A stretch of DNA of 64,000 bases, from positions 6,068,966 to 6,132,965 of the forward strand of contig NC_049989.1 of assembly GCF_000003815.2 (NCBI RefSeq), in the 5' to 3' direction. A model generated the notes under the pieces. It was not told where the DNA came from. It ran no database searches and worked only from the letters and a program-made list of their open reading frames with translations. Positions 22,139-49,252 of the stretch are shown here, in pieces (position 1 is the stretch's first letter; each line of letters starts with the position of its first letter). The stretch comes from Branchiostoma floridae. Its lineage: Eukaryota > Chordata > Leptocardii > Amphioxiformes > Branchiostomatidae. The position numbers and the translations under genes are program-made.

Positions 22139-24956
22139 ACTGGATCACTGAGGAAAAGGTCAAAGGTCATGCATCAACACGATCGATCTCACAGCATTCA
22201 TATGCATGTCTGGCTGGTTTTTGCGGCTCTATATTTGCATTTGGCTTTGCGTCTTTCTCTGACGAGACAAACGGAGAAAAGTGTAACTCCACGAGAAATG
22301 TGTACACAATACAAAGCATCACAAAAGACCTATACATTAGAGATTTATATGCATTTTTTTTCACAAGTAGAGTAGCAGAAGAAGAGTAGCGGAGTAATCA
22401 ATGTGATACAAACGCGAGATACCGATTCGGAAGTAAACCAAAGTGTACGTGCAGTACAGTCCTAAACGATGCGCCACTTTTAATAGCTTAGGCCAATTAG
22501 GACCTGGTTAAAAGAACCTCCTTGAATAGAGATAGATGAAACCGGGATTTTCCTCAACCGTTCAACGGATAAACGGTTCCTATCTTTTTGATGGCCACGC
22601 ACTGGATCTTACTGGTTTTATCTCGCGTTTTACAGCTGCACGTATGACATGTATGACACGTTCAAATATCCAAAAATATCCAAAACGGATCAAGGACTAT
22701 ATAACGCCCTTGAATAGATATTGGGAGGAAAGACCAAAGTATCGTTGGTAAAAAGTTGTGTCCTCATTATAGACCTCATTACGCAAAAAAAAAAAAATCC
22801 AATGCGTTGTTGCAGTAGGTAAGATCGTTTGCACTTCCCGCGAATGTGACACTAAATTCACATTGCATTGAATGCAATATAAACGTTACACTGTTTACAA
22901 ATGACATGGAGAAGTTTTCGCGCCACGTGAACAGGGGCCTGACCATATATGGAAAAAACAGTTTTATTCATCAGTGCGTCATTTCCGGTAGAGAAACAGA
23001 GCTGAGGCCCGGCGAGCACGGAGTGACAGAGTGCGCGAGCGCTAGCCGCAATTTTCTACTCAAAACCGTAAGTATACTTCTAAAACTCTGCGTTGTGTGG
23101 TTCAAGTGGCATGATTTGATATACACAGCTATGAATATTATAGACATGTTGTCGAAAAGACGAGAGTTTGGGTGATTTGTAGGGTTCCCGCGCCGGGACC
23201 TGTAGAGACAAACCAACATGGCGGCTCACCGGTGCTAGCCGGTACTATTTGCATGCTTTCCATGCAAACGATCACGGGATTTATCGCCCTTTCCTACCAC
23301 TTAACCGCGGTTTTGTAAACACAGGCAAAATCTACGTAACACATGGGTATCGCTGAGTTTCTCTCAATTTATAACATTGTAGTCAGAATCGTCAAACTCC
23401 CCAACTGCACTGTTCAAATCGTCACATGATTGAACAAGGTGGTTCGACAAAAATCACACACTTTTGTTCTCTCTCTCACACACAAGTTAACTCACAACCA
23501 ATTCATCATTGATCATCAGTCTCTGAAGACTTTTGAGGACTTCTTTCTTTTGTCTAGAGACGCATAATCATATTATGGCTTCGCTGTTTTAGATTCTTCC
23601 TGTAGTGTAAAAGTTGTGTTAAAGCTTCAGAAGATCTTCGAATTTGTAACGCCCAATTGTTAATGTTATGTAAAGATGTTTGTTAGAAATTATCACAAGT
23701 ATATACTAGTAACTAAAATGTTTAAAACATTTCTATAGACTAAAGCATATTCCTTGTGTATTTCTCAATTATACATGTACCTCTTTTGGCAAAGATTTGA
23801 GCTAGGCCTTAGGGTAAGACCTAAACAAGGAACTGATTCACGATTACCCAATTTGTGAGTGTCTGACTCAGCTCTTAAAATAATTACCTTAGTCTTGTTG
23901 CCATTTTTACTTCATCACAGTGGTTATAAATTTACTGTGAGATACAAAACTCATACATTTGGCCGTGTCTTTGGTGAACAACAGGTAAAATGTAATCTGT
24001 GCACATTTAGGTTTGGTTATACTTTCCTTTGTTAACAACAGTCAAACATTTGCTCACAGCATTGAAAATGACAAAGTTAAATATGTAAGGAAGTGGTGTT
24101 GTAAATTTGTTTGATGATGAAAATTGTGAAAATTTTTGTTTCCATATTTTCAGACGTCATTTACTCCTTTTCATTCATACTAGTTATGCCATGCTTTGTT
24201 TACGCCGTTACTGCCTAAACAAATCTGCATAAGCTGGCGGCACGCCAACGATCACAGTATTGTGTTTCCGCTCAGACGAAACACCTGTACGCATCTTTAA
24301 AAGAAGCTCATAATATAGTCATATATGTACCAAGCCTAGTGTGTGAAGAATATGATTGCCAATGATTTCTAATGGCTGGCCATTGGTTTAGTCCGCTTTT
24401 TGGAGGATGAAAATCCAGCTTATGCTGGATTAGACTGACCAGTACTGCACTACATTTAAACGTACATGTAACGTTACAGTGGTGTAACATTATCCGAGTT
24501 TGTGTTCATGTGATACCATGGTAGTACCGGAGTCTAGACCTTACCTCATATTTAAGTAGTCTAACATCTAGTCTTACAAGAGTAACTTGTTTACACCAAC
24601 CGTCGTTGTGTATTTGTTTGTGAGAATTGTGACGTTATGTCCAGTACTCTATATTATTCAATCAATGCACATGGAGTGTACCTTATTGATTTCAATCAGT
24701 TAATATCTTGGATTGATTAACACAAAGCTGAGTACAGTTTTTTAATTTATTTTTATTGGCTGGTTATTGATAAAATACAGAGCTAAAGCCAACATACATG
24801 TAACCAAGGTTCTGTGCCATTCTAATTTGATTGTTATTGACAAGTATGTCGTTTCTGTTTTCCCTTCACAGTAACCAGCTGAGATCCATTTTTGTTTTTT
24901 TACGGAGATATATCTACGACTCGTGAAGAATATTCCAGTGACTTCTCACCATTGCC
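22139..24956. promoter_or_regulatory. divergent promoter region and PPP4C 5' UTR intron
   Basis: No coding exon is supported here. The stretch separates the divergent HDDL gene and PPP4C. A GC-richer block at about 22980-23067 ends in AAAACC/GTAAGT, a good donor for a non-coding first exon of PPP4C. Its acceptor (CCCTTCACAG) is at 24871, so the 5' UTR resumes at 24872, 85 bp before the ATG. A YY1-like AACATGGCGGC occurs at 23216-23226. The first-exon assignment is inference. Confidence 0.4.
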
Positions 24957-27900
24957 ATGACTGACTGCAGTGATTTGGACAGGTCTGTTGGTGTTTGTTT
25001 GTCCTTGGTACTAGTATCTTGATTGGCACTTGTTTTCACTTGAAGGTATTTATCACCATGTTCTGATGTCCCACAACCAGTTTATATACATGTGTAAGTC
25101 ACGAGATGCTTGGGCTAGTCCATATTAAAAGGTTAAAGAGATTATGAAAACATGTATGGTTTCCATAGTCACAAGACAGAAGGTCACTAGTCAAATACAA
25201 GTCAGGATTATTAACTTGCACAGATTTTTGCAGGTGACTGTTATTGAATAAAAAGATCTACAACATTGATTCTATCTTACAATGTTTTGTAGCCTTGGTG
25301 GTTTGTGCCTGAGGCCTGTCTGGGCAGAAACATTCTAGCCTTGTCAAACTGTGTATCCATGAGGAAGTGTTTCCTATCTATAGCCATGTCACCTGGGTGT
25401 CAGATGGGTTTGGGAACGTTATGAAATGGTACCGTACAGGTCAATGACTTGTAGTATAGGCCATGTCATCTGCAGAGGCCTGGAGGGTGAGGGACCAGCA
25501 TGATAAAGCAGATATATGTTGAAATTGTGCTGGAATCTCTGTTAAAAATAGAAAATAGGACAAATTTGGTCAAAGTGCGTGTGGTAATCATGAGGGCCAT
25601 ATGAAGTGTGCAAAAGATGCATATGGGGACAAACGTGATTTTTGTTTTGGTTGACCTCATTCTCACTATTCAGCAAATTAACTTAAGTTGAAACTTTCAA
25701 CCTTAATTCAGTCACTCTTATTGCAAACATTGTAGTCAATTTGGTAAATTTTTCATTCAAAATTTCATCATGCAATGTTGTAAGACATTACTTTTCACTG
25801 CCTCACATTTGTATTTATGATGGAGTAAGTCTACACATATCCCCCAGTATAGTACCATGCCAGATTGCACCAAATTATACCTACAATTTCCCAGCTAAGA
25901 AAATCAAGCCCTTTCACCCCCCTGACACTCCCAGAAGTAAGTGTTTTAGAATTGAATTTTGTTTTGCCATCTACTGTAATGGATGTTTTAACGATATCTG
26001 TTCAATCTTTTCCCCTAACAGACAAATAGAGCAGCTTCGACGCTGCGAAATCATCAAGGAGGGAGAGGTAAAAGCTCTCTGTGGCAAGGCCAGGTAACTA
26101 GGCTTTTTCTATTTCTAGGATTGACATTGTAAGGGGCCCCTATCTGTGTAAAGGTTTTTTTTACATGGGTGTAGCTAAGTGTTGTGTTTTGTTTGCTGTA
26201 AAATGTTGTTACAGTTGTTGTTTATTGTAACTATGTTGTTTTGACTTGTGATATTTTGATACAAGCTTCTAAAGAAACAAATTCAGTTGGCCTGTTTAGT
26301 GTTGAGTGTCAATGCACTTCTATGGAAAAATGCATGCCAAATACAGTGCACAGTTTATCAGTACCAATGTGTGAGTGATGTCGTTTAATGTTGTATGAAT
26401 CTCTCTTTTCGCAGAGAAATCCTTATAGAAGAAAGCAATGTCCAGAGGGTCGACTCGCCAGTTACAGTGTGTGGGGACATCCACGGGCAGTTCTATGACC
26501 TTAAGGAACTTTTCAAGGTAAGAAACAGCAAGAGACATCCTTTTACCCTCATCATTGATGCAATATGAAGTATTCTTTAGTCCACAGGTAAAACGTTTAG
26601 ACAGTCCCGGTAACAACTGTAAATGCAGAAATGTTTGTTGGTTTAATTTTCGTTGGTTTACTGTTCATAGTTTTTGCGGTGAATATTTTTCGATTATAGT
26701 ATAAGACTATTCCATTATACTTTATAGTATGCAGTCTATGGTGCTACCGCAAAATTAAAACCACCGCAAACACTCCATTTTCCCGTTACCACGAAAGTAA
26801 ATCCCCGCAAACTGAAATGCATTCACAGCAGTTTTTTAAGCATTTGGAAGACATGGGGTCGTCTTTCTCTAATCCATTTGTCGAGCTTGCCCATGCAAGT
26901 CAGAGCGCTAGAGAAAGTAGAGAAATGCAGGACACAAAGCTACGGTTACTGTCTACCATCAGCAGCTGTAGAAGAGATCCCTGCTACAGATTATGGACAC
27001 CAAACGTTTTGATCCCTTGAAATATTTAATGGTTCAAAAGTATCTTTTTGTGATGTAGGTTTAATGGTCAATTTGATGAGTGCAAACATTTTCTCAGATG
27101 ATGATAGAAAAATGAAACTGGTCAATATCATGTTAAGTGCAGGTAATTTTACACATAAGGTACAGAGCTATATGCAGAAAAATAATCAGTCAAGCTTTGA
27201 TTTTAAACTGTATGTTTACAATGAGATGTACCAACTGACATGTTACTATTTTCGTTTATGTCTAGGTTGGGGGGGACGTGCCAGACACAAACTACCTGTT
27301 CATGGGGGATTTTGTAGACAGAGGGTTTTACAGTGTGGAGACATTCCTGTTGCTACTTGCTCTTAAGGTAAGTTCTGACTTTTTCCTTCTTTTTTTTATG
27401 GTCAAATGATGCTAATCATTTTAAGCATGGGAGAATTCTTTTCTAGGACTTTGGGGATCAACTTGACATCAATTAAGATGGAAGAGACGTCTTTCTCAAA
27501 GCTATTTGATGAGCTGCTCCATGCAACCCATGCAGCTTGAGAAAGTAGATATTTGCAGGACACAAAGCTATGGTTACTGTCTACCGTAAGTAACTGTAGA
27601 AGAGATCTCTGCAACAAATAGTATGCACCAAATGTTAACTTGTAAGTTCATAAACGTAGTCAAATAGTGCAATGTCTATAATCTACTGTCTTTTGCCCAT
27701 AGGTTCGTTATCCAGACCGTATTACGCTGATCAGAGGCAACCACGAGAGTCGACAGATCACACAGGTGTACGGGTTCTACGACGAGTGCCTGAGGAAGTA
27801 TGGGTCCATCACGGTCTGGAGATACTGCACCGAGATCTTCGACTACCTCAGCTTGTCAGCCATTATAGACGGGAAGGTGAGTTGTTTTATGACATCTTTG

Positions 27901-29685
27901 CAAGAATTAAACTTAGTGGTTTTGGGGTTCGCAAAGGAAGCGATAGCGTATTCATCTTTACAGGTGCCTTTGATTTATGTACGTCATGATACTATACAAT
28001 GTACAGTGCATAGTACTTAGACAAGGGATAGACAGGTAGAAGTTAAGTTTTTCTGGTGGATAGCAGAAAACAGCGAAACTAGGTTTACATTATAATCCTT
28101 ATTTTAAGTGGAGATTTGGCAGCAAGACTGTTGAGAGACCACTGGACATCCAGATACTTGAAAGATTGGTTATTAAGCCATGAATATTTGTGAATCCGGA
28201 GTAACAGTTGTTTTATTGTTTGTTTCAGATTTTCTGTGTACACGGAGGCCTGTCCCCATCCATCCAGACATTAGACCAGGTACGTTAAGCCACTGATACA
28301 ATGGATGAACACCAGGCTTTTAGCTAGGATTTTATAATAGGGTGTCCAAACTTATTGGTGAGTCGCGGTAAGTGACTTTTGTAGGGGGGTCTGGGGGCAT
28401 CCACCTTCCATGGTGCAGAGTTTTTGATGATTTTAAGTTAAAATAGTGCATTCTAAGGTATCCCAAGAGGCAAAAATACTGTTACAGATGTCACAGTAGA
28501 AGACTGTGACCACAGATGACCTTGTAGCATCCCTGGTCAATCAGAATTTCATGCTTGTCAGAGGATTTTCTCTCCAGTATAGGGCGTCCAGGGGCATCAA
28601 ATTTCTTGTTATTCTAAGAAAAGGGCGTCCAGATGACGCCTTGACGCATGCCTGGCTAAAAGCCTGATGAACACTTAGTTAATTTTGACTGGATAAAGGA
28701 TGTAATGTATTTGCCCATGCAAGTCAGATCACTAAAGAAAGTGAAGGAAAGCAGGGCACAATGCTATGGTCAATGCCATGACTAGAGATGCTCGCAATAG
28801 ATCCTCACAAATATATTGAACCATGAAGTAGGAGCAGTCCACAGTCTTGTTTCTGTAGATGATGTATTATGAGAAGGAGAAACTTGTACTGCATCATGAT
28901 ACATTGTGTGATGTACCTGTTTGTTGAAGCTGAATGATTCTTACCTCTCTCCGTATCTACCCCCACAGATTCGCACAATAGATAGAAAACAAGAGGTTCC
29001 TCATGACGGCCCCATGTGTGACCTGCTGTGGTCCGATCCAGAGGACACGCAGGGGTGGGGGGTCAGCCCCAGGGGGGCGGGGTACCTGTTTGGCAGCGAC
29101 GTGGTCGCACAGTTTAACGCTGCTAACAACATTGACATGATCTGCCGAGCACATCAGCTGGTGATGGAAGGGTACAAGTGGCACTTCAACGAGACAGTCC
29201 TGACAGTGTGGTCAGCTCCTAACTACTGCTATAGGTGAGAAGCTTTCTCATGTACACATTCTCCATATGCATGAACATAGAGTAGCTGCTTTAGTAAATT
29301 CTGACATCTTGGTTTTGTTTCGGGTAGGAGAGAAAAGGAGGTTTTTCCTGTGTTATAATTTTGAGGTTGAAACGATTCTGTTGTACAAGTCGTACAAGGG
29401 AGACGTGTACACAGCGCCATACATTTGCAGTGTGACTGCTGTGAAAACCTTGCAACTAAAAACACCATTAAATTTTTTCTTGATTTACTGTATGTAATTT
29501 TCATATGTCAAAAAAGAAAGTGAAGCATCATGTCAATGCTGTTCCTTCTCCACAGGTGTGGAAATGTAGCGGCCATACTAGAACTAGACGAACACTTGCA
29601 GAAGGACTTTACCATCTTTGAAGCAGCACCTCAAGAAGCCAGAGGCATTCCTTCCAAGAAACCTCAGGCAGACTACTTCTTGTAA
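24957..29685 (+). CDS. PPP4C: protein phosphatase 4 catalytic subunit
   Basis: Eight coding exons, 24957-24982, 26022-26093, 26415-26517, 27266-27367, 27703-27876, 28229-28279, 28969-29234 and 29556-29685, give 307 residues, the same length as human PPP4C. PP4 is a PP2A-like Ser/Thr phosphatase acting in DNA repair, centrosome and splicing-related complexes. All PPP-family active-site motifs are intact: GDIHGQ (Asp54, His56), GDFVDRG, RGNHES, HGGLSP, SPRGAG (Arg211) and RAHQ. The C-terminus ends DYFL, the carboxymethylation tail of PP2A-like enzymes. PP4 rather than PP2A is indicated by [13 protein letters not shown] and [13 protein letters not shown]. An inverted paralogue lies at 33839-37914. 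Confidence 0.98.
26616..26827. mobile_element. ACTGTAAATGCAG fold-back MITE, copy 2
   Basis: It starts ACTGTAAATGCAGAAAT and ends with the imperfect inverse GCATTCACAG. Like the element at 20849-21036, it contains TTTTGCGGTG in one half and CCACCGCAAA in the other. It lies in PPP4C intron 3. Confidence 0.5.
26855..28825. repeat. three related intronic repeats in PPP4C introns 3, 4 and 6
   Basis: Segments near 26855-27015, 27455-27635 and 28705-28825 share the order CCCATGCAAGTCAGA or CCATGCAACCCATGCA, AGAAAGTAGA, GCAGGACACAAAGCTA, GGTTACTGTCTACC and GAAGAGATC. A fourth, inverted piece is near 35855-35915 in the paralogue. They are not coding. Confidence 0.55.
28313..28666. mobile_element. 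hAT-like MITE
   Basis: This 354-bp insertion in PPP4C intron 6 starts CAGGCTTTTAGCTAGG and ends CCTGGCTAAAAGCCTG (one mismatch when inverted). It is flanked by the 8-bp duplication ATGAACAC (28305-28312 and 28667-28674). Its right end shares GACGCATGCCTGGC-type sequence with the 1.8-kb hAT-like element in flotillin-2, so the two appear related. Confidence 0.85.
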
Positions 29686-32076
29686 TTCCTCTTAAGATGT
29701 TATCGACTGCAGCCCTGTTCCCTAAGACACTGTGACGTCTTGTGCTGAGATTTTAAGACTCAGAAGGATACTTATTCCTTCTTCTGGGGATCATGACAAG
29801 AGTTTTGGGACCTTACTGAAAAATTTTAGGATAACATTTAACTTTGTTGCAGTTGAAACAGGACAAACATTAAATATAGTAAGTTGGCAAAAAAAAAGCA
29901 AACCTCACATCCTGACACTTACAAAAATACAGTACTCACCTCAGTTGAAGGTCTCTGTTTTCTATGCTTTCCTTCACTGACAACCAATGTTAGTAGCAAG
30001 CAAGGAAAGAAGGATAAGACTGAAACAGGAAGTTAAGTATATTTTATGCCATACTTTGTCTCTAGGAGGTGGTTTTTAAGTGTGACAAACTCAACTTCTT
30101 GGAGAGCAGTTGTAGTCTTTCCAAAAACACATGGATAAGTGAAATGCTCTGATTGTTTCTACTTAATCTTGGCCACTTACTAGTTTACATTTAACAAAAT
30201 TTTAGACCAAATAGATGACACAAAAAAAGAGTCCTTTAACTTTTAAGCCTACCATTTGTACATGGATGTGCTTATAGGACAGGGTAGCGGGGTGAAGTTC
30301 CATTGGATTAGCGTTTCAGGCCTCACTTAGCTTTCAGGTATCTGTTTCATATGTCAGTGGCACAGACGATATCTAATGTAGGACCAGAATTCCAAAGAAT
30401 TATCCAAATCATGTTCACATCTCTCTTTCTTTGTACCCCACCCTGTTTATATATGTATATGTTAGTATCTGTGATATGTATTGTTAGGTCTGAGCATACG
30501 TGCAACATTTTGAAGTCTTCGCCTCAGACCTTCAGTCCAGCCACTACAAAAAGCTCCTTCCTTTCTTGACTCCCCAAGTACAGACAAGACCCAGGCACCA
30601 CTGACAATCCTACTGCAAGGAAAGACACAAGAGGGAAAATCTATTTTAGTCTTTGATGTCAGCTGTGCAGGGTTAGGAGGAAATATTTTCTGAAAATGTC
30701 ACTCAATTTGTCAATGGTACCATTTCTAATTATGTTGATTTTGTGGGTATTAGAATGGCGTAGGGGGAATTTAGTGAAAAAGAATTAGTTTTTACTTGTA
30801 TATAAAGCTGAGAAATAGTGTCCTATCATGTCTACTGCACATTAGAGAATCAAGGAAACTTTAGAATATAATGCACTGTAATTATTCTTTTTCACTGCCA
30901 TGTTACTTTCCTGTGTGTGGTAAGTCTTATATTATTGAGCCACAAAAAATGCCATGTATGAAAGGTGATGAATAACTTTCGTATCAGTTGATGTTATATA
31001 TGCAGTTACCTTGTCATTTTTCATGCTTAACTGTGACTTCTTGATATGATTTTATGTCACATGGTAATATTGCATTGCTAGAACAGTCAGAACTCATTGT
31101 TATGAAATTATGTGTCGTAACGCAAAAATGCAAAAAAGTCAAATATGAACATAGGGACAGTCATCAAACTTCATTGCAAATTACTAATTGAAAGTGCTGC
31201 TGTGTTGATTCGTTTTCACATCAGCAACTGGCAACAGGCATTGCTTTCGTACAACATTTAAAAGCCTGTTGGTTGCTGAATGGCATTTTTGAAAAAGGCT
31301 TCACCAAACACCTTTTCAATCAGACAGTGGTGGCATCAAAAGACCTACAGTGAAGATTCCTAACATTTTGAGAAATACAGAGCAGTCTTGTGAGAATAGC
31401 AAATAGGTGGTGTTCTACAAATAATCTAAAACATGGGTAGTTCACAAATGACTTGAAAAATATTTCAGTTGAGTTGGGGACTTATTGGGCAAGTTTATAT
31501 TTGTCATAAAAAGATATCTATCAACAATGTTTTAAACAGGCATACTATTATCCATTGTAATGACTTGTTTATGAGTAGTTACCATGTATTTTTCAGTATC
31601 TGGATAACTATGTTCCTTGGTTGTTGACTATGTATTTTGTTTGTGTAATACAAGCTGAGGTATAGCTGTCCTTCCTGTAGCTGCTAACTACAAGATATAG
31701 ACAATGACTTTTCTCTGGGTGATTCCATTCAGAAAGTAGGATGGGGGTGGGGATAAAATTGGAGTCAAAAGAAAGACCTGGCTTTGAAATGGGTAGTCCA
31801 AAATATGAAAGCGTTTGAAAAAAAAGACTCCTCCCTCACCCTCTAAACTTTCTAAATGGATTTGTGTATCTATTATTGTTACCATTACTACTTGCCTGTA
31901 ATCTACCTACTCTGCCAAATGTTAATACTAGTATTTAATGTACATTTGTTCATTTTCTGCAGTTGCCCCACCTTATATTTTTACCACTCAAGAAAGATCC
32001 TTACAAAATGTGTAGCGGTGCAGATGTTAGTTCATAGGGAGATGTGACTTTTTATTTGTGAAGAACCAAGTGTCCA

Positions 32077-33838: not shown

Positions 33839-36800
33839 TTACAAGAAGTACTCTGATTTAGGTTTCTCAGGGGGAACATCGCCTCTGACTTCTTGAGGTG
33901 CTGCTTCAAAGATGGTTAATTCCTTCTGCAAGTCTTCGTCTAGTTCTAGTATGGCCGCTACATTTCCACACCTGGGGAGAAGGAACAGCATTAAAATCAT
34001 GCTTCACTTCTTTTCTTACATGTATTATGTATAGGCAACCTCCTTGGTATATGTTACACATAGACGTATCAATAGACTATATCCAAAATCCTATACTCTT
34101 AACCCCTAGCTGGTCGCAAACGGAATACCAGATGGCACATAGCAGTTTGTGGAGAATGTGTACGCCGGTAAGAAAGCTCCTCACCTATAGCAGTAGTTAG
34201 GAGCTGACCACACCGTCAGGACTGTCTCGTTGAAGTGCCACTTGTACCCTTCCATCACCAGCTGATGTGCTCGACAGATCATGTCAATGTTGTTAGCGGC
34301 GTTAAACTGTGCGACCACGTCGCTGCCAAACAGGTACCCCGCCCCCCCGGGGCTGACCCCCCACCCCTGCATGTCCTCTGGATCGGACCACAGCAGGTCA
34401 CACATGGGGCCGCCCGCTGGAATCTCTTGTTTTCTATCTATTGTGTGAATCTGTGGGGGAAATATGGGGAGATATTACACATTTAACAGGTGTATCATAC
34501 AATAACGCATGACGATAATACCCGTTCATCGAAGAGGTATCAATTATCACTTTGGCTTGAACAACAAGACATTTTTCACAAACTTCGTCTTTTTATTGCA
34601 TTTTATTTTGTGTCTGTTGCAAGGATCTCTTCAACAGCCACATACGATAGACAGTTTTGTGTTCTCTAGCGATCTGACATCAAATGGATTGGAGGAAGGT
34701 AAACGTGGACCTCTATACAAAGTACGTATCTCATTTGGAAGGTTGATCTCATGGTTGTAACGGGCTCATAACGTACCTGGTCTAATGTCTGGATGGATGG
34801 GGACAGGCCTCCGTGTACACAGAAAATCTGAAACATGACAAAAACAACCTGTTACTCCAAATTCACAAAGATACATGTTTGATTACCGGTCTGTCAAATT
34901 TCCGGATCCTCAGTGGTACAACTTGGCATCCAGTTTAACGTGGACTGCCCAGGCTTTCTTCGGGGCAGGGAAAGATTTCTTCCGCATCGGTAATTTTCAG
35001 CATCTGGAAGATAGTAGTTTAATCTGCCTCGAAGACCAGGCAATCCACAGTAAACTGGATGCCAGGTTTTCATATCCGTGATATGCAGTCCACACATAGT
35101 TTCCTAGACAGAAGAAACGCAAGATGGCCACACTGAAACCATTTACCGTTAACGACTTGATTTTGGCGATTTTAACGGTCACTATTCGTCCGCTAAATGA
35201 TGAAATTTTCATCGTCGCAACTTTTTGATAACGCGAATCCACCCCACCCCCTTCCCGCGGCACTACTTACTAGACTAGTACATGTACTAGTAAACTGTAT
35301 ATGCTGGTTAACCGGTTATGTTACGTTCACAATTATGCTCCATTTCTGCACCACAACATGCACACATATATACTAGTGATTCACACTGAACAACAAGCAA
35401 AAGTCAGTATTCAAAAAGATAGATTTTCACACCTTTCCATCAACAATGGCTGACAAGCTGAGGTAGTCGAAGATCTCGGTGCAGTATCTCCAGACTGTGA
35501 TGGACCCATACTTCCTCAGGCACTCGTCGTAGAACCCGTACACCTGTGTGATCTGCCGACTCTCGTGGTTGCCTCTGATCAGCGTAATACGGTCCGGATA
35601 ACGAACCTACGGATAAGGCAATTAGGTCGTGCATGATAGAATCTGTACTAACACTAAGCAGCTTGTAGTTACTAGTAGATACCTTTACAACTGTAAACCA
35701 ACACAAAACAGTAACATACAGCCAAATGGTTGCTTCCAAATACAAACAAGAAATAATTTCAACGTTTGTGTGGTATGGGGTGCGTCTTCATAGCCTTTAC
35801 CAGCAAATAAACCTATGCAACGTCCGTAATCTGTTGTTCGGAACCTTTTCTATATGTACTTTGCAGCTTTGTGTTCTGCATTTTTAAGCATTCTCAAATT
35901 CTCAACCGATCTGGTTTGAACTTGTATGTGGCATTCAAGCGTATCAAATGGAGTAAAGAAAGACCAGATGGTTACTGATATCCAATTGATTACGAATTCC
36001 TGGAGCACCTCCACGCTTAAATTGCTTAAACTGATCAGAATTTAATCCGTTAAAGAAACAAATAATAACGTACCTTAAGAGCAAGTAGCAACAGGAATGT
36101 CTCCACACTGTAAAACCCTCTGTCTACAAAATCCCCCATGAACAGGTAGTTTGTGCCTGGCATGTCCCCTCCAATCTAGAGTATAGGATGTAAAAAGGTA
36201 AACTATTCAGCAACGTGACAGCTGGAAAAGTCTATCAGAAAAGAGAAATATGAGGTTTGAACCAGTGTTAAAAATATTTTTTTCTGTGTACCGTGCATTT
36301 AACATACGCCAGGCAGATGACACCTGTACATTGGTCATTTATTATGCATGTACAAACCATCTGGTACACAGTGCCCACAGTCTGTTGCAGGCAGGGGTGT
36401 TTCTTTATAATTAGGGTATGTTTATTGTATTGTTTCTTACCTCGAAGAGTTTCTTAAGATCATAGAACTGCCCATGGATGTTCCCACACACTGTAACGGG
36501 TGAGCCTATCGTTTTGATATTGCCTTCTTCTATGAGGGTTTCTCTGTGAAGGGAGAGATTCAGAGAACTTTAAGAAAACAACACGGTAAATTGTAAATTG
36601 TGTTCTGTACTTGGCACCTGCGTTTCCAACAGACCAATTGAGAAGCTTGTCTCAAAATGTGACAGGATTCAAATATAACAAGATTCCGTAGGACAGAATC
36701 CTCCATGAAGTAATTATATATGGTGTTTTCGGCATGGCTAAGGTGTTTCATACCCTCTTTAACAACCGACATGCTAAATGTCAGACTAATCCATTAAAAA

Positions 36801-37914
36801 GATATTGATCGATTGATTGATTGTTTCGTAGGTGCAAATATACAGGCCTAGACAAAAACAAGTTGTTCAAAGTATGAAAGTCTTATCTTAGCAAAGACTA
36901 CTATTGTAGCATTTGCTCAAAAATCATATAAGTAAGCATCTATTTTGCATCATTTATTTATACAAATGCAGTGAAGGAATTGCGAGATACAGCTGCGAAC
37001 AACCCTAACTACAATACTCCGTCAGGCCCCTCCTTCCTGGAGTAACAAATTAAAACTAAACTGCAACAACTTTTTACAGCAACCAATTGCAAAACACAAC
37101 AAGTAGCTACGTACATACACGTAATATCTTTTATTTATTTAGTAAACCCATGACAAATGCCATGTAACTATTGCATCGGAAATAGAAGAAGACTTGTTAC
37201 CTTGCCTTCGCGCAGAGCTCTTTTACCTCTCCCTCTGTGATGATTTCGCAGCGTCGAAGCTGCTCTATTTGTCTGTTAGATGAACAGATGGAACGGACAT
37301 CGTTAAAGCAATGATTGAAGTTATACGTCCACATGAATACAAATCTAAACACTGTCAGAGGGAGGGGCGGTTGTGTGAGTAGAGTAGTTGTACTACAACT
37401 TGTAGTCATGTGTTTTGTATTACCTGGCATTGTGTTATTTTGACCAATCTACGTGTACATTTTCCATTGGAAATAGAAGAATTGTAAGGCAATGAAAATT
37501 GAAGTTTAACAACATCGACATATTTCGACAATATCCACATTTTTGCCTAGTCTAGCCTCAGGCCCCTATCATCAAGGCTACAATGTTGTAGATATTTTTT
37601 ATACTATATATTGAAACGATCACCTGAAACAAATCTGTACAAGTTACTAGTAATAATCCTGAAACTGAATATTGACCTTTGTCATGTAATTATATGGAAA
37701 CCTCGTGCACATGCACATATGTTCATAATCCATATACCTTAACATGCACTAGCCCAAGCAACTTGTGACTTACACATGTACATAAACTGGTTGTGGGACA
37801 TCAGAACTTCGTGCTAAATACCTCTAAGTAAGCAAAAACAAGTGTCAATCAAGATACTAGTACCAAGGACAAACAAACACCAACAGACCTGTCCAAATCA
37901 CTGTAGTCAGTCAT
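33839..37914 (-). CDS. PPP4C-like paralogue, predicted pseudophosphatase
   Basis: Eight minus-strand coding exons, 37914-37889, 37272-37201, 36543-36441, 36175-36074, 35606-35433, 34827-34777, 34450-34185 and 33971-33839, match the PPP4C exon phases and give 308 residues with no stop or frameshift. The fold and motifs GDFVDRG, RGNHES, HGGLSP and RAHQ are kept. Two key residues have changed. GDIHG is GNIHG (Asp54 to Asn, a metal ligand of PPP enzymes). SPRGAG is SPGGAG (Arg211 to Gly, equivalent to PP2A Arg214, which contacts phosphate). Exon 3 is the most diverged; exons 5-7 are nearly identical to PPP4C. The tail ends EYFL. The gene lies tail to tail with PPP4C. Intron 1 and the 5' UTR also match, so duplication was genomic. 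Expression is not known. Confidence 0.9.
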
Positions 37915-40809: not shown

Positions 40810-42076
40810 CTTGTGTAGAGATTATGTGTGGCAATATTGCTGCAAAGTGTTCTTTTCTATGCTGATTTTTTTTTTTTCATATTCTGACTACATCTTCTAC
40901 TCTCCAAGCAGGGGTTTATACAGTGTTTTATCATTTGGTGACTTTGTGTCTGATCTGTTTTCTTTCCACCGGCCCAGGTGATTCCCGCAAAGTAAACATC
41001 TTCCACAAATCACATCATTTCCTCAACAACTCCCAGTGAAATATTTCAACCAAACCGTTGCCAAGACATGCCAGGCTCCTTTGGTCGATGAAAATATAGA
41101 TATTGCCAGAGGGGTGCAAATGTGTAGCTGTAGGATTGGCTAACTCCACCCCGGCCTATTGCTTTTCCAGCGGCAAAGCCGTCTGGTCGGGACTACCCCA
41201 GAGAAACCAGGCGCGGAAGTTTTGCCAGTGATCCTGATTGCGCTGTTGATATAAACAAAGTCAAACTTTGGTCTGGCCCGCAGGCCTGTGTCTGACGGGG
41301 AAGCGGTCGGACAACTCTGCCGGTTCACACACAGATCAACACCGAGGGGGGCACGCCACTCATTTGTCGTGGGAAACACGTCATCGTTGGACGACAATAG
41401 TACATCAAACTGGGAGGGGAACTACGTCACAGAGAGGGAGCGCGGCGCATCCTGTACAGCGTGAATGTCAGGTATTTGTGATCATTTGTCGGACTGGGTG
41501 ACCCGACCACCCCACCCACAGCGGGATTCGCGTGGTTTCGTAACACAGCACAGCATACCGGGACAGGTCGCCGTGTGAAGACGTGAGGGGATCTGTGATT
41601 CGTCCTCTCGGGGTTGTACTTTGAACTGTGGCGCAGGATTTCTAAACCCGACCCGTGTCAAGAGGTAAACACAACCGCGGAGAAGCTATTCACCATTTAC
41701 AGGATCACCTGCGTGCTGCAGATTCGTCACTTCCGGCAGACTGCGTTCCGTGCCATACGGATTTTAGAGGCCTGGAGTGCGGACTGTATCGTCCTCTGTG
41801 TACATTGTTATTGATTGTTAGCGGCATAATTGGTTTAATTGTACGGCAGGAAGATCGAGAGGCGGCCAATAATACGGAGTAAACCTCCTGGGAATTCACA
41901 GATTGAGCCGCAGTTACGCCGTGTGACCGGGTTTGCCCTCTAACCTGTTGTTCCGCCTAGCTTGTTTTGGGTCTCGTTTGAGGAAGGAGGTGGTCGTCAA
42001 ATAAAGGCCGTAATATTAGTCTCCGCGGGGCGGCTGGCCGGGCCAGGCTGGGACGGAGAAAAACAGACGCCTCGCC

Positions 42077-45000
42077 ATGTCTATTATCGGGGATCTGGCC
42101 TTGAGCCGTGTGGTGTTGGAGTCCGAGGGACGGCGGTCGCGACGCGAGACGTCCGGATTCTCCACCATGCGTCGTTCCCGCGCGTCCAGGGAGATCATCA
42201 AGGTGGACGTGGAGGACACGTCTCACGTGCCGTTTGGCACCAAGCACAAGGACGTGGTGAAAGTAGCGGTGGAGATGCAGGGACAGACGACTCAGCTCGT
42301 GGACCTGGACCAGAAGGAGTCTCTGGAGGTGATCGTGGAGAAGCTGTGTGAGGGGTGGGGCGTGGAGAACCCACACTACTACTCCCTGTCGCTGATTTCG
42401 CACGAAGGAGCCCGAGGGGTCTACATTACAGAAAAGAATCGCCACCAGATAAAAAATGGCAGCTACCTGAGAGTCAGCACGGCGCCGTCTAAAGCGGCCA
42501 GGGACATTATAACCAAGATCAAGAACAGGAACAGACCCATGGCGGAGAAGAAGCCGGTTATGCAGAGACTAGCCCAGATGTCGTCGGACGAGACCTTCGC
42601 TGTCGAGTTCATTACCTCAGACGGAGTCACACTGTTGATGGATTTGGTGGTGTCTGGTGTGACGACAGGGGAGAACTTGGGGCTTGTCTTGGCAGCTTTC
42701 CTAGCCCTGATGGACCACGGCATCGTCTCCTGGAACTCTCTCAACCCCAGATTTGTACAGAGGGTCGCCAGCTTCGTCAACAAGAGCACGGTGGCGGAGG
42801 CCATCATTGTCCAGCGGGCCCTCGCGATCCTGGAGAGCATCGTGTTGCTAAGCGACGCGTTCGGCCAGGTGGTGTCCGGCCAGGTCAGCCTTCAAGTGTT
42901 GACGGAACATTTCAAGAGCCCGGCGGCGGAGATCCAGCTTAACTCTGTTACACTAATCAACGCGCTGCTGATCAAGGCCACCCCGGCCAAGGCCAAGGAG
43001 ATTCTAGACATCATCAACTCCCGTCACGTGCAGGGGCTGATCCTACAGGGCATCATAGACGGGCGCAGAACGGTGGGGGCGGAGATGGCACACCAGCTGC
43101 ACGTATTACAGGTCAGAGTTATATAGCTGTAAATACAGTACCTACTCTCCAAGCAGATGTTAGGCTCCGGCTGTTGACATCAAGAAAACAGTGCAAAATG
43201 AAAATAAAACGTAAAAAAAAAAAACAGCCGGAGCCTAACCTCTGCTTGGAGAGTAGCATAAATACCGTATCACAATTTGGTGATGCTGTCTGTATGCCGC
43301 AGTATTTAGAGGGTCGCTAGTGATTGTAACAGTGCACAATTTTACACAGAGGCAATTTGTTTGACTAGTTGAGCCTAAAATGTTACAGTTAGACTGTTGC
43401 CAAATCGTGCGATAGTAATTGGTTCAAAGATTTTCACAGGGAGTGAATACCAACGAAGCACAAACGCCAGGTTATGTTTAGATGGGGCTGTGAGTGTGCG
43501 CAGAAAAGTTTACTCCCCAAGCAGAGGTTTGGGGCGAACTTTCTATTTTGTCCTGTTTCTTCGCGTCGTGTCCGCCACACAGACACCCCCCTGTTCGGGA
43601 TGGGGAAAAACGAATGCTTCCGAATGCTTGTGAAAGGAGTTTCGATCCTTTGTACCTCCTCGACAAATCTGATTTATCGTCTGACAGCCATTTGTGTACA
43701 TGCCATGAAGGGATCATTGACCCAGTTATATTTGCAAGTTCCCTTTACAGAAAGATTCGCTTTGTATCTTGGTCACATTTCCTCTTTATACAAACTATGG
43801 ATTGTTTGGAAAATTTAATTTCCTGTTTCGTTTTTAATCGTGACCAAATGGAAAAAAATAGGGGTACTGATCTGAAAAATACAGAAATTGTAGAAACGTT
43901 TGTGAGGAAAATTAGTTTTGCACCTTATTTTTCAACTTTCAAACGGTGAAAGTTACCGTGAAATAGCAGCTCATGGGTTCGATTTCGGGCTCACGTAAAA
44001 GCTTAGCAAGCAGTAATAGAAATGGCGAAACACATGTGCTAATGGTATTATATATTGGGCTTCTCATTTTCTGTCTCGTGGTTTTCCTTTTTGCGATGGT
44101 AATCACGTTTCCGGAGTAATGTGTAGGCCTCTGGGGACTATAAATGTGTGGTTCCATCAACATCAATCTGCTCTCTCCCGGTAATTGGCCATGGGGAGCA
44201 CTTGATAGCAATTTAAATTGCCAGAATGTAATGATTTCAATCATTGACATTGCACGTGACTATCGTCTCTCTATTTCTCTCTTTCCCTCTCTCTGTCTCT
44301 CTCTCTGTCTGTCTCTCTCTCTCTCTCTCAATCAGAGGGAAACACGTATACTCATGTTTTCTCGTTCCCGGTTTGACTTTCCAGGTGTTGCTGTTCTGTT
44401 GCCTTGACGACCGAATCCAGACCGAACTTGACCCCGGTGACCCAGAGCAACTGAACAAGGTTCGCAAGCTGTACGCCCTCGCCTTTGACCGTGACCTCAG
44501 TGCGCAAGGCAGCGCTTTATTCGCCGAGAACAAGGGAGCCATCCGCAGGTCAAAAGTCGAGTATATGGAAAACTACAAGAAGCTGGGTTTCACCAACTAC
44601 ACAAGCCCCATCCTGGACTTTGAAGAAACGCCCCCTGGCCTGCTCGCCCTGGATTGCATGTTGTTCTTCGCGGAGAATCACACAGAAAGTTACAACAAGC
44701 TAGTGTTTGAGAACTCCTGCAGGGATGACCAATATGTCTGTCCATTCGCAAGGTAAGTTGCTACATCGAGACAAAAGGAAGTCGAAAATGTATTCTTCGA
44801 TTCAACGTTTACATGTTTTCAACCTGACCGATTTCTTTACTGGCGAAATCATTTCAAAATCTTATTTTTCTTTCCTTCATCCACAGGTGTGCCATTGCCC
44901 TCACCCTTTTGCTCTGCAAAATACTCCAGGTAGGAGAGCCCCCTTCTGAGACGGGGCAGGACTACCATCCCATGTTCTTCGCCACCCCAAATGCATTCGA

Positions 45001-46239
45001 GGAGGTCTTCTGTGTCTGTATACAGTCACTCAACAAGGTATATCACGTTTTGTCACGACAAGAAAAGAGTAACTAGTACAGAATGACCAAATGTAATGAC
45101 AGAGGTATATAAGGGGGCAGAGCTATCTCCGGACAGACATGTGTATCACACCCTTTCATAATCCCCAACAAGCAAATGTAGAAAAACATAATCGTAACGT
45201 ATCTCCAGCTCCCGGTTTCTCGGAACACCAGCCTTTCTACAGATGTTGTCGGGAGTAGAAATGTCGCTGGTCCGGGTATACGGGAGTTTGAGAAACGTGA
45301 CGTTCTGGTCTTTCTACATCTGGTTAAATGGATAACTCATCTTTATCTTTTGGTGGTGGGTATTACTTGAGTGGGGACCATTGATTGAACGAGGGAAAAG
45401 ATGCACAGAAACAAGATGTACCTGCAGATTAACTTGAAACGTACATTGGTGTGTTTCAGACTTGGCGGGAAATGCGCGCCATTCACGAGGATTTTGACAA
45501 GGTGATGGACGTGTGCCGGGAGCAGATCGGCATGGCCCTGTCCCACCGCCCGCGCAGCCCAGCCATCTTCGGCACCAAGCTGCAGGACTACAGCTACCAC
45601 GAGATCATCCGACAGATCCAGGACAGCCGCGTGTCCAAGCTGCCTCTGGACGGGGACGTGGAACCGTTCTGCGGCCTGAGGAACACCATCACCCCCGGAG
45701 TCGTCCAACTCATCAAGGCACACCGCCTCTCGCACCTCGTCAAGGGCGGGCTGTTCCAGAAGTTCAACAAGAGGAGAGTCAAGGACAAGTTCTGGTTCTG
45801 TCGCCTCGCGCCGAACTTCAAGGCGTTCCACTACGGAGACGCAGGGGAGGGGACAACTCCCGACATCGACCAACTGAGCGGGAAGCTAGACCTCGCCGAC
45901 ATCAAGCAGCTGGTGACAGGAAAGCAGTGCCCCCACATGAAGGAGTCCCGGAGTCAGAAGGACAGCGTCACACCATACGCGTTCTCAATCCTGTACTACC
46001 CCGACAATTCGCTAGACTTCGTGGCGCCTACCAAGGAGATGTACGACCTGTGGACGGACGGTATCAGCGCACTGCTGGACCAGGAGATGACGAGTAAAAC
46101 CACCAAGAAAGAGATGGAGATGTTGTTGTCCATGGAGATGAGACTAGCTCTGTTAGACACGGAGGGACTGCAGCTTCCGTCAGAACCACCTCCACTGCCG
46201 CCAGAACCCGACAACTACGACTTCGCTGTGAAGCTGTAG
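42077..46239 (+). CDS. ELMO: ELMO engulfment and cell motility protein
   Basis: Four coding exons, 42077-43111, 44385-44752, 44887-45037 and 45460-46239, join in frame to give 777 residues (human ELMO1: 727). ELMO binds DOCK-family exchange factors to activate Rac during engulfment and migration. After a roughly 60-residue basic N-terminal extension come the Ras-binding-like domain and ELMO armadillo region ([56 protein letters not shown]), the ELMO domain ([44 protein letters not shown]), a PH domain near 610-740 ([41 protein letters not shown]) and a Pro-rich tail ([13 protein letters not shown]) for the DOCK SH3 domain. Which vertebrate ELMO it matches is not resolved. Exon 1 alone encodes 345 residues, which is intron-poor for this family. 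Confidence 0.93.
43143..43255. mobile_element. CTCCAAGCAGA fold-back element 4
   Basis: This is the best-preserved member, in ELMO intron 1. TACTCTCCAAGCAGATGTTA plus GGCTCCGGCTGTT at the left inverts at the right with one mismatch across 33 bp. Only about 47 bp separate the arms. A solitary half end (CTCCCCAAGCAGAGGTTTGG) is at about 43512-43531. Confidence 0.75.
44255..44332 (+). repeat. CT-rich microsatellite
   Basis: A low-complexity run of CTCTCT/CTGTCT/CTTT lies in ELMO intron 1, about 50 bp upstream of the exon 2 acceptor. It may contribute to, or compete with, the polypyrimidine tract. Apparent open frames across it are low-complexity artefacts. Confidence 0.8.
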
Positions 46240-46403
46240 ATCACAAACTCAGACCAATGCGAATCTTCAAGGGTTTTTTAAAGTTCTGTTTTGAAAGGAT
46301 TGTACATGTGTGCTGATTAAGGTTGTTGTTCCTGGTGATTTGTTGCAGTATTATACTATCGGTGTATATGTTTGATGGACATTAAGACGATGTTTGGTTA
46401 CTC

Positions 46404-46555: not shown

Positions 46556-47448
46556 TTAGACTTTTAGCTTTGTCAGGACGTCCCCGCATCTACTGTTGAT
46601 CTTCAGCGCCGCTAGATTGTCCGCTCGTGTGGGTCCGATGTTCAGGATGGCCACGGGTTTGTTCTGTTTGTGAGCGGCGGACACAAACCTGTAGGCCGAA
46701 TACACCTGGAGGTAGGGAAACAGAGATGAATGCGTGATCGAGAGGGGAACAGAAACGCCATGGCAGGAGAAATACAAACCATTAACAGTGACAATGGGAC
46801 AGTAGGGAACATGCAGTACAAAAGATTGAAACTTAGAGACTATATTGACCTTTCAACTAAACCGTATACATATACATGGTGTATAGAAGGCCGTCGGATC
46901 GACACCAACAACCTAAGGACAGAGCATGATGAAAGGGGAAGAGATTGAAGAAGTGTCATACTGCATGGCTCTGTTTTGCTACCCATTTTTTTTATATCAT
47001 AGCTTGAATAATGTGTACCAAAAACATCACAAGCCATATTTATGTACATGCTTCCCTACGGCAGCACCGAAACTCGTCAATGGTTCATATTTCATAATCA
47101 TAAATCACACAACGAGATTCATATTTACTGACCTGTAGTGAAGACCCTGCCACCAGTATACTGTCAGACTCCTCCAGTTTTTCAAAGACCAGTTGGACCG
47201 TGTCCTTGGGCACGCACTCCCCGAAGTACACCATGTCAGGCTTCAGGGGTCCGCCACATTTTCTGCAGATACATATAGTCCATGGGCCAGGTCCCCAACA
47301 ATGGCAATTAGCAATTGATACCAAACATAATAGGCCAGTAGGAATCGAAGGATCAGAAAAAAATGATGGATATGTGTGAGTAGCTATAAAGCTGCCGATA
47401 GTAAATAATTTTTTCACGTCAACAGTATGGTTGAGTTTTTACGTCGAC

Positions 47449-47534
<86 letters not shown>

Positions 47535-48333
47535 GCGTGTGCATGTGCGTGTGTGTTCATATGTGTGTGTGTGTGCATGTCTGTATGTCTGCGTCTACAA
47601 CAAGTGTCTACACCACATCTACATCTACGTACCCGCAGTGCGGCGCTCTAAACCCCTCTATCTGTTCCGGAGTCAGGGCGACGTCGGCGTCCGGCCTGAT
47701 CTCGAACGGCACCGCCTCCCAGTGCGGGTTCATGTTCGATATCACCTGTTGTAACCCGGACCTCGGTACCACGTGCTTACAGGACAGACATGCCGCCCTA
47801 AACGCGCTTCCATGGAGCTCTGTCATCCGCTCACTCCCGGCTTTCCTGTGTAGATCGTCCACATTCTGTGTCACCAGCCAGTGGAGTTTACCCTGCCGCT
47901 CCCACTGCACAAGTGCCCGGTGAGAAACGTTAGGCCGGTGTGACGAGAACCCGGGCCATCCTACGTAGTTTCTAGCCCAGTTCCCCTGCCGAACGTGTGT
48001 GTCCTTCACGAAATCTTGGTACATAACAGGCCCGATGACGGGTCTGTCTTTGCCGGCCCGAGGCGGGCTCTTGACAGAACGATAGTCTGGGAGACCGGAC
48101 TCAGTGGACAGTCCGGCTCCTGTGATCACCAACAGCCGTTTGGAAGCGTGGACGAACTCCTGGAGCCTGCTGATGTCGTCAGAGGTAGCCGAGTCGGTTG
48201 GAGGAACGAAATTCAAGTCTTCGACGAAAACAACATTAGCAGACGACGTTGTATAACACTTCCGGGTTGGACCGAGAATGGTCCTCACGTGGTCTATGGT
48301 GCCTTTGCCAAGTATCAAACGCATTTTGGACAC
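46556..48333 (-). CDS. SIRT4: mitochondrial sirtuin SIRT4
   Basis: Three exons (48333-47633, 47262-47133 and 46705-46556) encode 326 residues. SIRT4 is a mitochondrial NAD+-dependent class II sirtuin with lipoamidase, deacylase and ADP-ribosyltransferase activities reported. The N-terminal ~45 residues are basic and hydroxylated, as in a matrix-targeting peptide. NAD-binding and catalytic motifs are intact: [29 protein letters not shown] and ELHG with the catalytic His. The zinc site is CLSC plus CGKC; the second Cys pair is assembled across the exon 1/2 junction. [19 protein letters not shown] and [23 protein letters not shown] are SIRT4-type signatures. The start could instead be the second Met at 48324. 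Intron 1 contains a (GT)n tract. Confidence 0.95.
47451..47580 (+). repeat. (GT)n microsatellite in SIRT4 intron 1
   Basis: About 78 bp of pure GT (47451-47528) is followed by interrupted GTGCGTGTGCAT. The whole tract is about one third of the 370-bp intron. On the SIRT4 transcript it reads as a CA repeat between donor and acceptor. The long Cys-Val open frames through it are artefacts. Confidence 0.95.
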
Positions 48334-49252
48334 CAGCAGAAGTAACTAAAATGACACAGGGAATGATAGAGTGAGTGATAAGTAACTGAAAGGATGACTG
48401 ACACGACAAGTCGTTCCCTGAGACATTACATCATTACACAGCAGCCATTTTGGATCTTATTTATGTCACTATATCTGATTGGCTGTAGGGAATGACCACC
48501 CACCCGACTGGCCAATAGCAACCCATGTAACATAGATCGATAATTGTCGGTGTGAAGTTACGCAATTTGATTTTCCGCTGCAATTTGAATTTACTTCGCT
48601 AGATGGCAAAGTAGACTTAGAAGGGGGCATTGAATACTTCAGCAGATAAAACCCTTTTGAATACAGTACACTTGTTTTCCAATACAAAACAAATACAGTT
48701 TTGGGGAAAGACAAACAGAAGAGTTAATGTAGTTTGTCATTGAAGTAAAATTCATGTACTGCTTCTTGTCCATTGCCGGAATTATACTGATATCATGGAG
48801 ATCCATTTATTTCTGATGTCAACATAGCTGCATTTGGTGTGCAATGTCTGTGCTATGGAAGAGAACACTGTATACTAAGTACAGATTTTCTACATAAGAC
48901 AACAAATCCTACTCGATGGCAAACTTATGCTTCATAGAAATCAACAAAACAAGGAATCTTTCACATTCTGACAGAGGAAAAAAAAAGTTTTATTCTATTT
49001 TCCAACTGATTGCTTTAACCTCACAATACATGAATAAATGATGATACATGTTGGATAAAGATGTGCAACTGGTCAGAGCTTCCTTTTAAGCTCTGACAAA
49101 AATTATACTACATTTGTACCATGGTAGTAGTTCTTAAGTCTACATACAGTCCTGGTGACTAAAAAAAAAAATGTTACATTAACAATGCTTTGATGATTTT
49201 TATGAAATTCAATACATTTGTACCATAACACATTTCAGTCTATGAATCTAAG
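48334..49252. other. SIRT4 upstream and MRPS23 3' region
   Basis: No coding exon is supported. A YY1-like core (GCCATTTT, 48443-48450, reading AAAATGGC on the SIRT4 strand) lies about 110 bp upstream of the SIRT4 ATG. A minus-strand AATAAA (48993-48988) is a candidate MRPS23 poly(A) signal, about 260 bp past its stop. Confidence 0.4.

Follow-up and report, generated by a model that had tools for sequence, protein, structure and literature searches.

The window analyzed here, a 64,000-nucleotide stretch of the Branchiostoma floridae genome (contig C11, 6068966-6132965), contains two copies of PPP4C. They lie on one contig in inverted, tail-to-tail orientation with approximately 4 kb between them (Table 1), and we refer to the forward copy as FWD and to the inverted copy as INV. 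FWD is presumed to be the copy of ancestral type. Neighboring open reading frames resemble ELMO and a SIRT4-like sirtuin, and others in the window resemble a flotillin gene.

Table 1. Features of the duplicated PPP4C locus, in window positions.
Feature	Position	Strand	Description
FWD, forward PPP4C	24957..29685	+	8 exons, 307 aa; 10 of 10 checked active-site residues present
INV, inverted PPP4C duplicate	33839..37914	-	8 exons, 308 aa; from exon assembly and translation
INV exons 1 to 8	37914-37889, 37272-37201, 36543-36441, 36175-36074, 35606-35433, 34827-34777, 34450-34185, 33971-33839	-	
Alignable duplicated segment, forward side	24608..29814	+	From inverted repeats and local alignments
Alignable counterpart on the INV side	38125-33717	-	From inverted repeats and local alignments
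INV exon 3	36441..36543	-	Highest dN and dS of all exons (0.137 and 0.49); carries N54
INV exon 7	34185..34450	-	Carries H178, I186, A188, G189, M203 and G211
INV exon 8	33839..33971	-	C-terminal tail diverged and longer by a single in-frame insertion of 3 bases; terminal YFL retained
INV codon 54	36480..36482	-	AAC, Asn for the metal-ligand Asp of GDIHG; from the reassembled CDS
INV codon 211	34346..34348	-	GGG, Gly for the phosphate-contacting Arg of SPRGAG; from the reassembled CDS
INV R178H	34447-34445	-	Exon 7 cluster
INV codons 186-189	34423-34412	-	Exon 7 cluster: V186I, H188A, D189G
Stretches in INV introns 2 and 5	36969-36665, 35408-35155		Probable old mobile-element remnants
ELMO-like open reading frames	41950-46240	+	By eye, ordinary animal gene
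SIRT4-like sirtuin open reading frames	47085-48345	-	By eye, ordinary animal gene
Flotillin-like open reading frames	12193-15858		By eye

The initial annotation had described INV as an inverted PPP4C duplicate with an intact open reading frame, eight exons and sound splice sites, and reassembly of the gene bore this out. INV has a single open frame of 308 codons followed by TAA, all seven introns are bounded by GT-AG, and its eight exons have the same lengths as those of FWD except for 3 bases in exon 8. No stop, frameshift, broken splice site or intron loss was seen across the reassembled eight-exon gene, and the features of a processed or decayed pseudogene were absent. The Metallophos domain (PF00149) was recognized in both products, with 148.7 bits for INV and 165.8 for FWD against a curated cut-off of 21.5.

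From the alignable extents of the two segments, the duplication included at least approximately 100 bases ahead of the start codon as well as the 3' end; farthest upstream, the match extends over just 28 bases. The introns of INV align poorly, which the probable mobile-element remnants in introns 2 and 5 help to explain. These two stretches accounted for 37 of the 47 matches in a genome DNA search, at 68-90% identity.

To look for further copies we used a human PPP4C sequence, entered by hand for this and all other comparisons. Searched at the protein level with it, the genome (513 Mb, 431 contigs) gave 38 exon-level matches. Those at 6094976-6106254 (contig C11) correspond to FWD and INV and have 61-96% identity, while the remaining matches have 32-74%; on two other contigs (C3 and C8) one short exon each exceeds 70%, the remaining exons of these loci being at 47-64%. 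No third PPP4C-like gene was found in this search, in which all 57 candidates were scored, and the 47 matches of the DNA search, in which 40 of 348 candidates were scored, included no nearly identical copy on a different contig. No amphioxus PPP4C duplicate appeared among the open-licence PMC papers listed for amphioxus PPP4C, protein phosphatase 4 and pseudophosphatases; by title and abstract, those on pseudophosphatases deal with PRL phosphatases.

At the protein level INV and FWD are 88.6% identical (308 aligned positions), and they differ at 53 aligned codons. Against human PPP4C, INV has 86.0% and FWD 95.1% identity, while INV and PP2A (2ie4) have 63.8%. INV is therefore PPP4C by descent, being closer in sequence to PPP4C than to PP2A. 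Among the best 60 of 92 solved-structure matches, PPP4C was not named. Up to residue 294 the two copies differ at 28 sites, where the human sequence matches FWD at 23, INV at one and neither at four. Two of the 28 sites have no PP2A letter; FWD agrees with both human PPP4C and PP2A at 12, and INV does so at none. These matches identify INV as the copy with most of the change. The two copies are alike in their eight-exon structure, their C-terminal YFL and eight of ten active-site residues; INV differs in D54N, R211G, a diverged exon 3, the stretch 178-211 and the C-terminal tail.

As the PPP active site we checked ten residues that we take to be D54, H56, D82, R86, N114, H115, H164, R211, H238 and Y262. 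INV keeps eight of them (H56, D82, R86, N114, H115, H164, H238, and Y262), as the initial annotation had stated for the remaining motifs, so that the metal and phosphate ligand set of active PPP4C is incomplete. The two replacements named there, Asp54 to Asn and Arg211 to Gly, were found again as AAC and GGG on the minus strand, 3 to 12 bases from the positions first given. D54N requires one G-to-A change (GAC to AAC) and R211G one A-to-G change (AGG to GGG). Both original residues are present in FWD (GAC and AGG), in human PPP4C and in PP2A (2ie4); both changes thus arose on the INV lineage. INV has therefore lost essential catalytic residues within a retained domain, as PPP-family pseudophosphatases do. 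A motif scan for GDxHGQ or GNxHGQ, which covered the PPP-like loci examined in the amphioxus genome, yielded seven different motifs. Six carry Asp (named by resemblance, three PP1-like, one PP2A-like, FWD and one calcineurin-like) and INV alone carries Asn.

By count, the losses did not appear to be selective, contrary to what had been proposed from the sequence at the outset. With 34 of 307 aligned codons changed (the one-codon insertion being left out), 1.1 hits among the ten active-site residues are expected by chance and two were observed (P 0.31). Exon 7 also contains a cluster of replacements consisting of R178H, V186I, H188A, and D189G. Position 188 corresponds to PP2A H191, a residue of the active-site rim, and H188A is a possible third change at the rim in INV.

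For the expected effect of the two replacements we take PP1 D64 and R221 to be the equivalents of D54 and R211. According to PMC7599070, the attacking water in PP1 is presumably activated by D64 and D92 together with the metals, while the substrate is contacted by R221, and PMC10765524 describes R89 and R214 of PP2A as coordinating the substrate phosphate. Laboratory mutants of PP1 carry the same change at the same residue as D54N. One report used PP1-gamma D64N as a catalytically dead, dominant negative form with a normal protein level (PMC3930702), while another assayed PP1 D64N as an enzyme at its own optimum pH and gives a pKa of 9.8 compared to 7.2 for the wild type (PMC4741303). Unlike INV, these are engineered single changes in PP1 rather than PP4. 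A phosphatase-dead form of PP4 in use is R236L (PMC6748143). Since the loss of Arg in INV comes on top of D54N, strong catalytic impairment of its product is likely. The initial annotation had suggested a dead or impaired enzyme: the loss of both residues argues for impaired, while the treatment of PP1 D64N as dead in one source (PMC3930702) and as an assayable enzyme in the other (PMC4741303) leaves dead too strong a word.

Pairwise comparison of INV with FWD (NG86) gave a dN of 0.053 and a dS of 0.139, a pairwise dN/dS of 0.38. The dN/dS of INV is 0.38 when all synonymous changes are placed on INV and approximately 0.76 when they are split equally between the copies, and with values in this range the substitution counts alone are compatible with drift. 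Nor do missing stops decide the matter, as the probability of acquiring none under neutral substitution is 0.13 for 50 changes and 0.29 for 30, which makes their absence weak evidence on its own. In contrast, the reading frame has been kept far better than the aligned non-coding DNA. The alignable non-coding flanks, 974 bases in the alignment, have diverged by 0.156 (K80) and contain 42 gap openings, while the 924 aligned bases of the CDS contain a single in-frame 3-base insertion (the aligner opened two gaps). Neutral drift at the indel rate of the flanks would be expected to produce many frameshifts, even with half of the events on INV. As dS (0.139) is close to the non-coding divergence (0.156), the frame appears to have been maintained for most of the age of the duplication. 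The initial annotation had reasoned that decay would normally bring stops or frameshifts. The frame is kept better than drift would predict (one indel against 42 gap openings), the missing stops count for little by themselves, and the dN/dS against PPP4C proposed there points to weak amino-acid constraint.

We obtained a fairer test of amino-acid constraint by dividing positions 5-291, the range covered by the PP2A letters used (1-4 and everything from 292 on fall outside it), according to agreement with PP2A. INV has changed at 13 of the 194 positions common to FWD and PP2A and at 13 of the 93 others (Fisher P 0.050); in simulation, 17.5 changes are expected at the shared positions (P ~0.04). 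The outcome is marginal, and amino-acid constraint on INV is weak. We conclude from these comparisons of sequence that during much of its history the frame of INV was probably under constraint, and that the protein itself is now less constrained.

The replacements are distributed unevenly. Codons 1-33 contain 4, 34-74 contain 13, 156-177 contain 1, 178-211 contain 6 and 278-307 contain 10, while 75-155 and 212-277 contain none; in exon 7, every amino-acid change lies at or upstream of codon 211. A largest-gap test gave P 0.0006 for replacements and P 0.82 for synonymous changes. FWD shows a similar pattern against human PPP4C, with 2 differences in 75-155 and 212-277 and 13 elsewhere. In these two segments there are six codons with synonymous changes and no replacement (core test, P 0.0035 at equal shares and 0.019 if INV carries 30% of the synonymous changes). 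Since we chose these segments with the changes already known, we do not count the core test among the principal evidence.

Synonymous divergence also varies along the gene, with a dS of 0.49 in exon 3, 0 in exon 6 and 0.08 in exon 7; partial gene conversion, constraint on synonymous sites or the small numbers involved may account for this. In exon 8, dN is 0.11 and dS 0.113. Exons 1-3 differ at 12 of 43 synonymous sites compared to 15 of 170 in exons 4-8 (P 0.003), which suggests gene conversion. We rejected conversion as the cause of the intact core, however, as the aligned non-coding flanks resemble each other no more closely around exons 4-8 (54 differences in 347 bases) than around exons 1-3 (83 in 627).

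The initial annotation had suggested that INV could bind PP4 regulatory subunits and compete with PPP4C. The genome has matches to PPP4R2 and PPP4R3, each at one locus, and potential PP4 partners therefore exist. According to the table in PMC9707111, neither methylation nor B55 binding survives in the PP2A mutants H59Q, D85N, R89A and H118Q; the same mutants apparently still bind polyoma middle T, and H59Q also binds striatin. With B55 binding lost in these mutants, binding of regulatory subunits by INV cannot be presumed, and by analogy INV may have lost it too.

The explanation that we favor, and to which we give about an even chance, is that INV is a PP4-like paralog with impaired catalysis on which selection has relaxed, and a candidate pseudophosphatase. 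PPP4C would have been duplicated in inverted orientation in the amphioxus lineage. FWD would have remained an ordinary PP4 catalytic subunit. INV, as seen above, has retained its exons, splice sites and frame, has gathered most of the amino-acid changes, and has lost the metal-ligand Asp and the phosphate-binding Arg. Its product is predicted to fold as a PP4-like phosphatase domain with activity strongly reduced at cellular pH. Weak selection may have kept it, either for some activity that remains and matters in a limited context or for a putative non-catalytic role, namely binding PP4 partners or substrates without turnover. The main and serious rival is that INV is a dying duplicate, long constrained and recently freed, in which damaging replacements came before stops or frameshifts and which has no present function. 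The chance level of active-site hits, the near equality of dN and dS in exon 8 and the slight sparing of PP2A-shared sites (13 changes against 17.5) all agree with such a gene. Its intact splice sites and lone in-frame indel do not, given the 42 gap openings in the flanks, nor do the codons of 75-155 and 212-277 with their synonymous changes only, a division made post hoc. We consider this rival doubtful but well worth keeping in view.

It could be speculated that the two codon differences come from assembly or sequencing error or from an unmerged allele. Codon 211 does lie within a G-run. Homopolymer errors are usually indels, however, and here each codon shows a simple substitution with the frame undisturbed. 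An allele would hardly differ from FWD at so many aligned codons, with much of the introns unalignable, or lie on the same contig in the opposite orientation; the candidates scored in the DNA search (40 of 348) and the protein search (57 of 57) included no additional near-identical copy. We regard such an artifact as very improbable. Another possibility is that INV is an active but altered phosphatase, in which Asn shifts the pH dependence and loss of Arg alters substrate handling. Such a PP4 would be slow or work at alkaline pH and would serve a specialized role, for instance in germ cells. The shifted pKa of PP1 D64N (PMC4741303) and the eight retained residues are consistent with this. On the other hand, the Arg that coordinates the substrate in PP2A (PMC10765524) and contacts it in PP1 (PMC7599070) has also gone, so activity should drop, and PP1 D64N has been treated as catalytically dead (PMC3930702); we find this reading improbable. 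Returning to the impaired paralog, a bolder version would make INV a chordate PPP-family pseudophosphatase beside a still active parent, a natural dominant negative that damps PP4 signaling. INV would then occupy PP4 partners or phosphorylated substrates. We think this rather unlikely.

The catalytic subunits of PPP phosphatases rank with the most highly conserved enzymes. Few natural inactive members of the family are described in the sources consulted (PMC10317984, PMC2175518). The authors of PMC10317984 present PfPPP8 of Plasmodium falciparum as the first PPP-family pseudophosphatase to be identified and also the first to be characterized by experiment. Like INV, it is of PPP type and has Asp-to-Asn changes at metal ligands, but in PfPPP8 both Asp of GDXXDRG are gone (GNLINRG) and the motifs are spaced differently (PMC10317984), while INV, which closely copies an active-type gene, lacks the GDxHG Asp and an Arg. 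Kinetoplastid pseudophosphatases, kPPP and a second cluster in the PP2A/PP2B section, had been predicted earlier (PMC2175518). As with INV, these predictions came from catalytic-residue substitutions, here in kinetoplastid sequences and by sequence only (PMC2175518). As a candidate, INV belongs to the known class of duplicate-derived pseudoenzymes. The adjacent pair of an active-type and an impaired-type gene would offer a system for asking whether a dead catalytic subunit persists and regulates its parent; if INV is simply a decaying duplicate, it would show such a gene in the course of dying.
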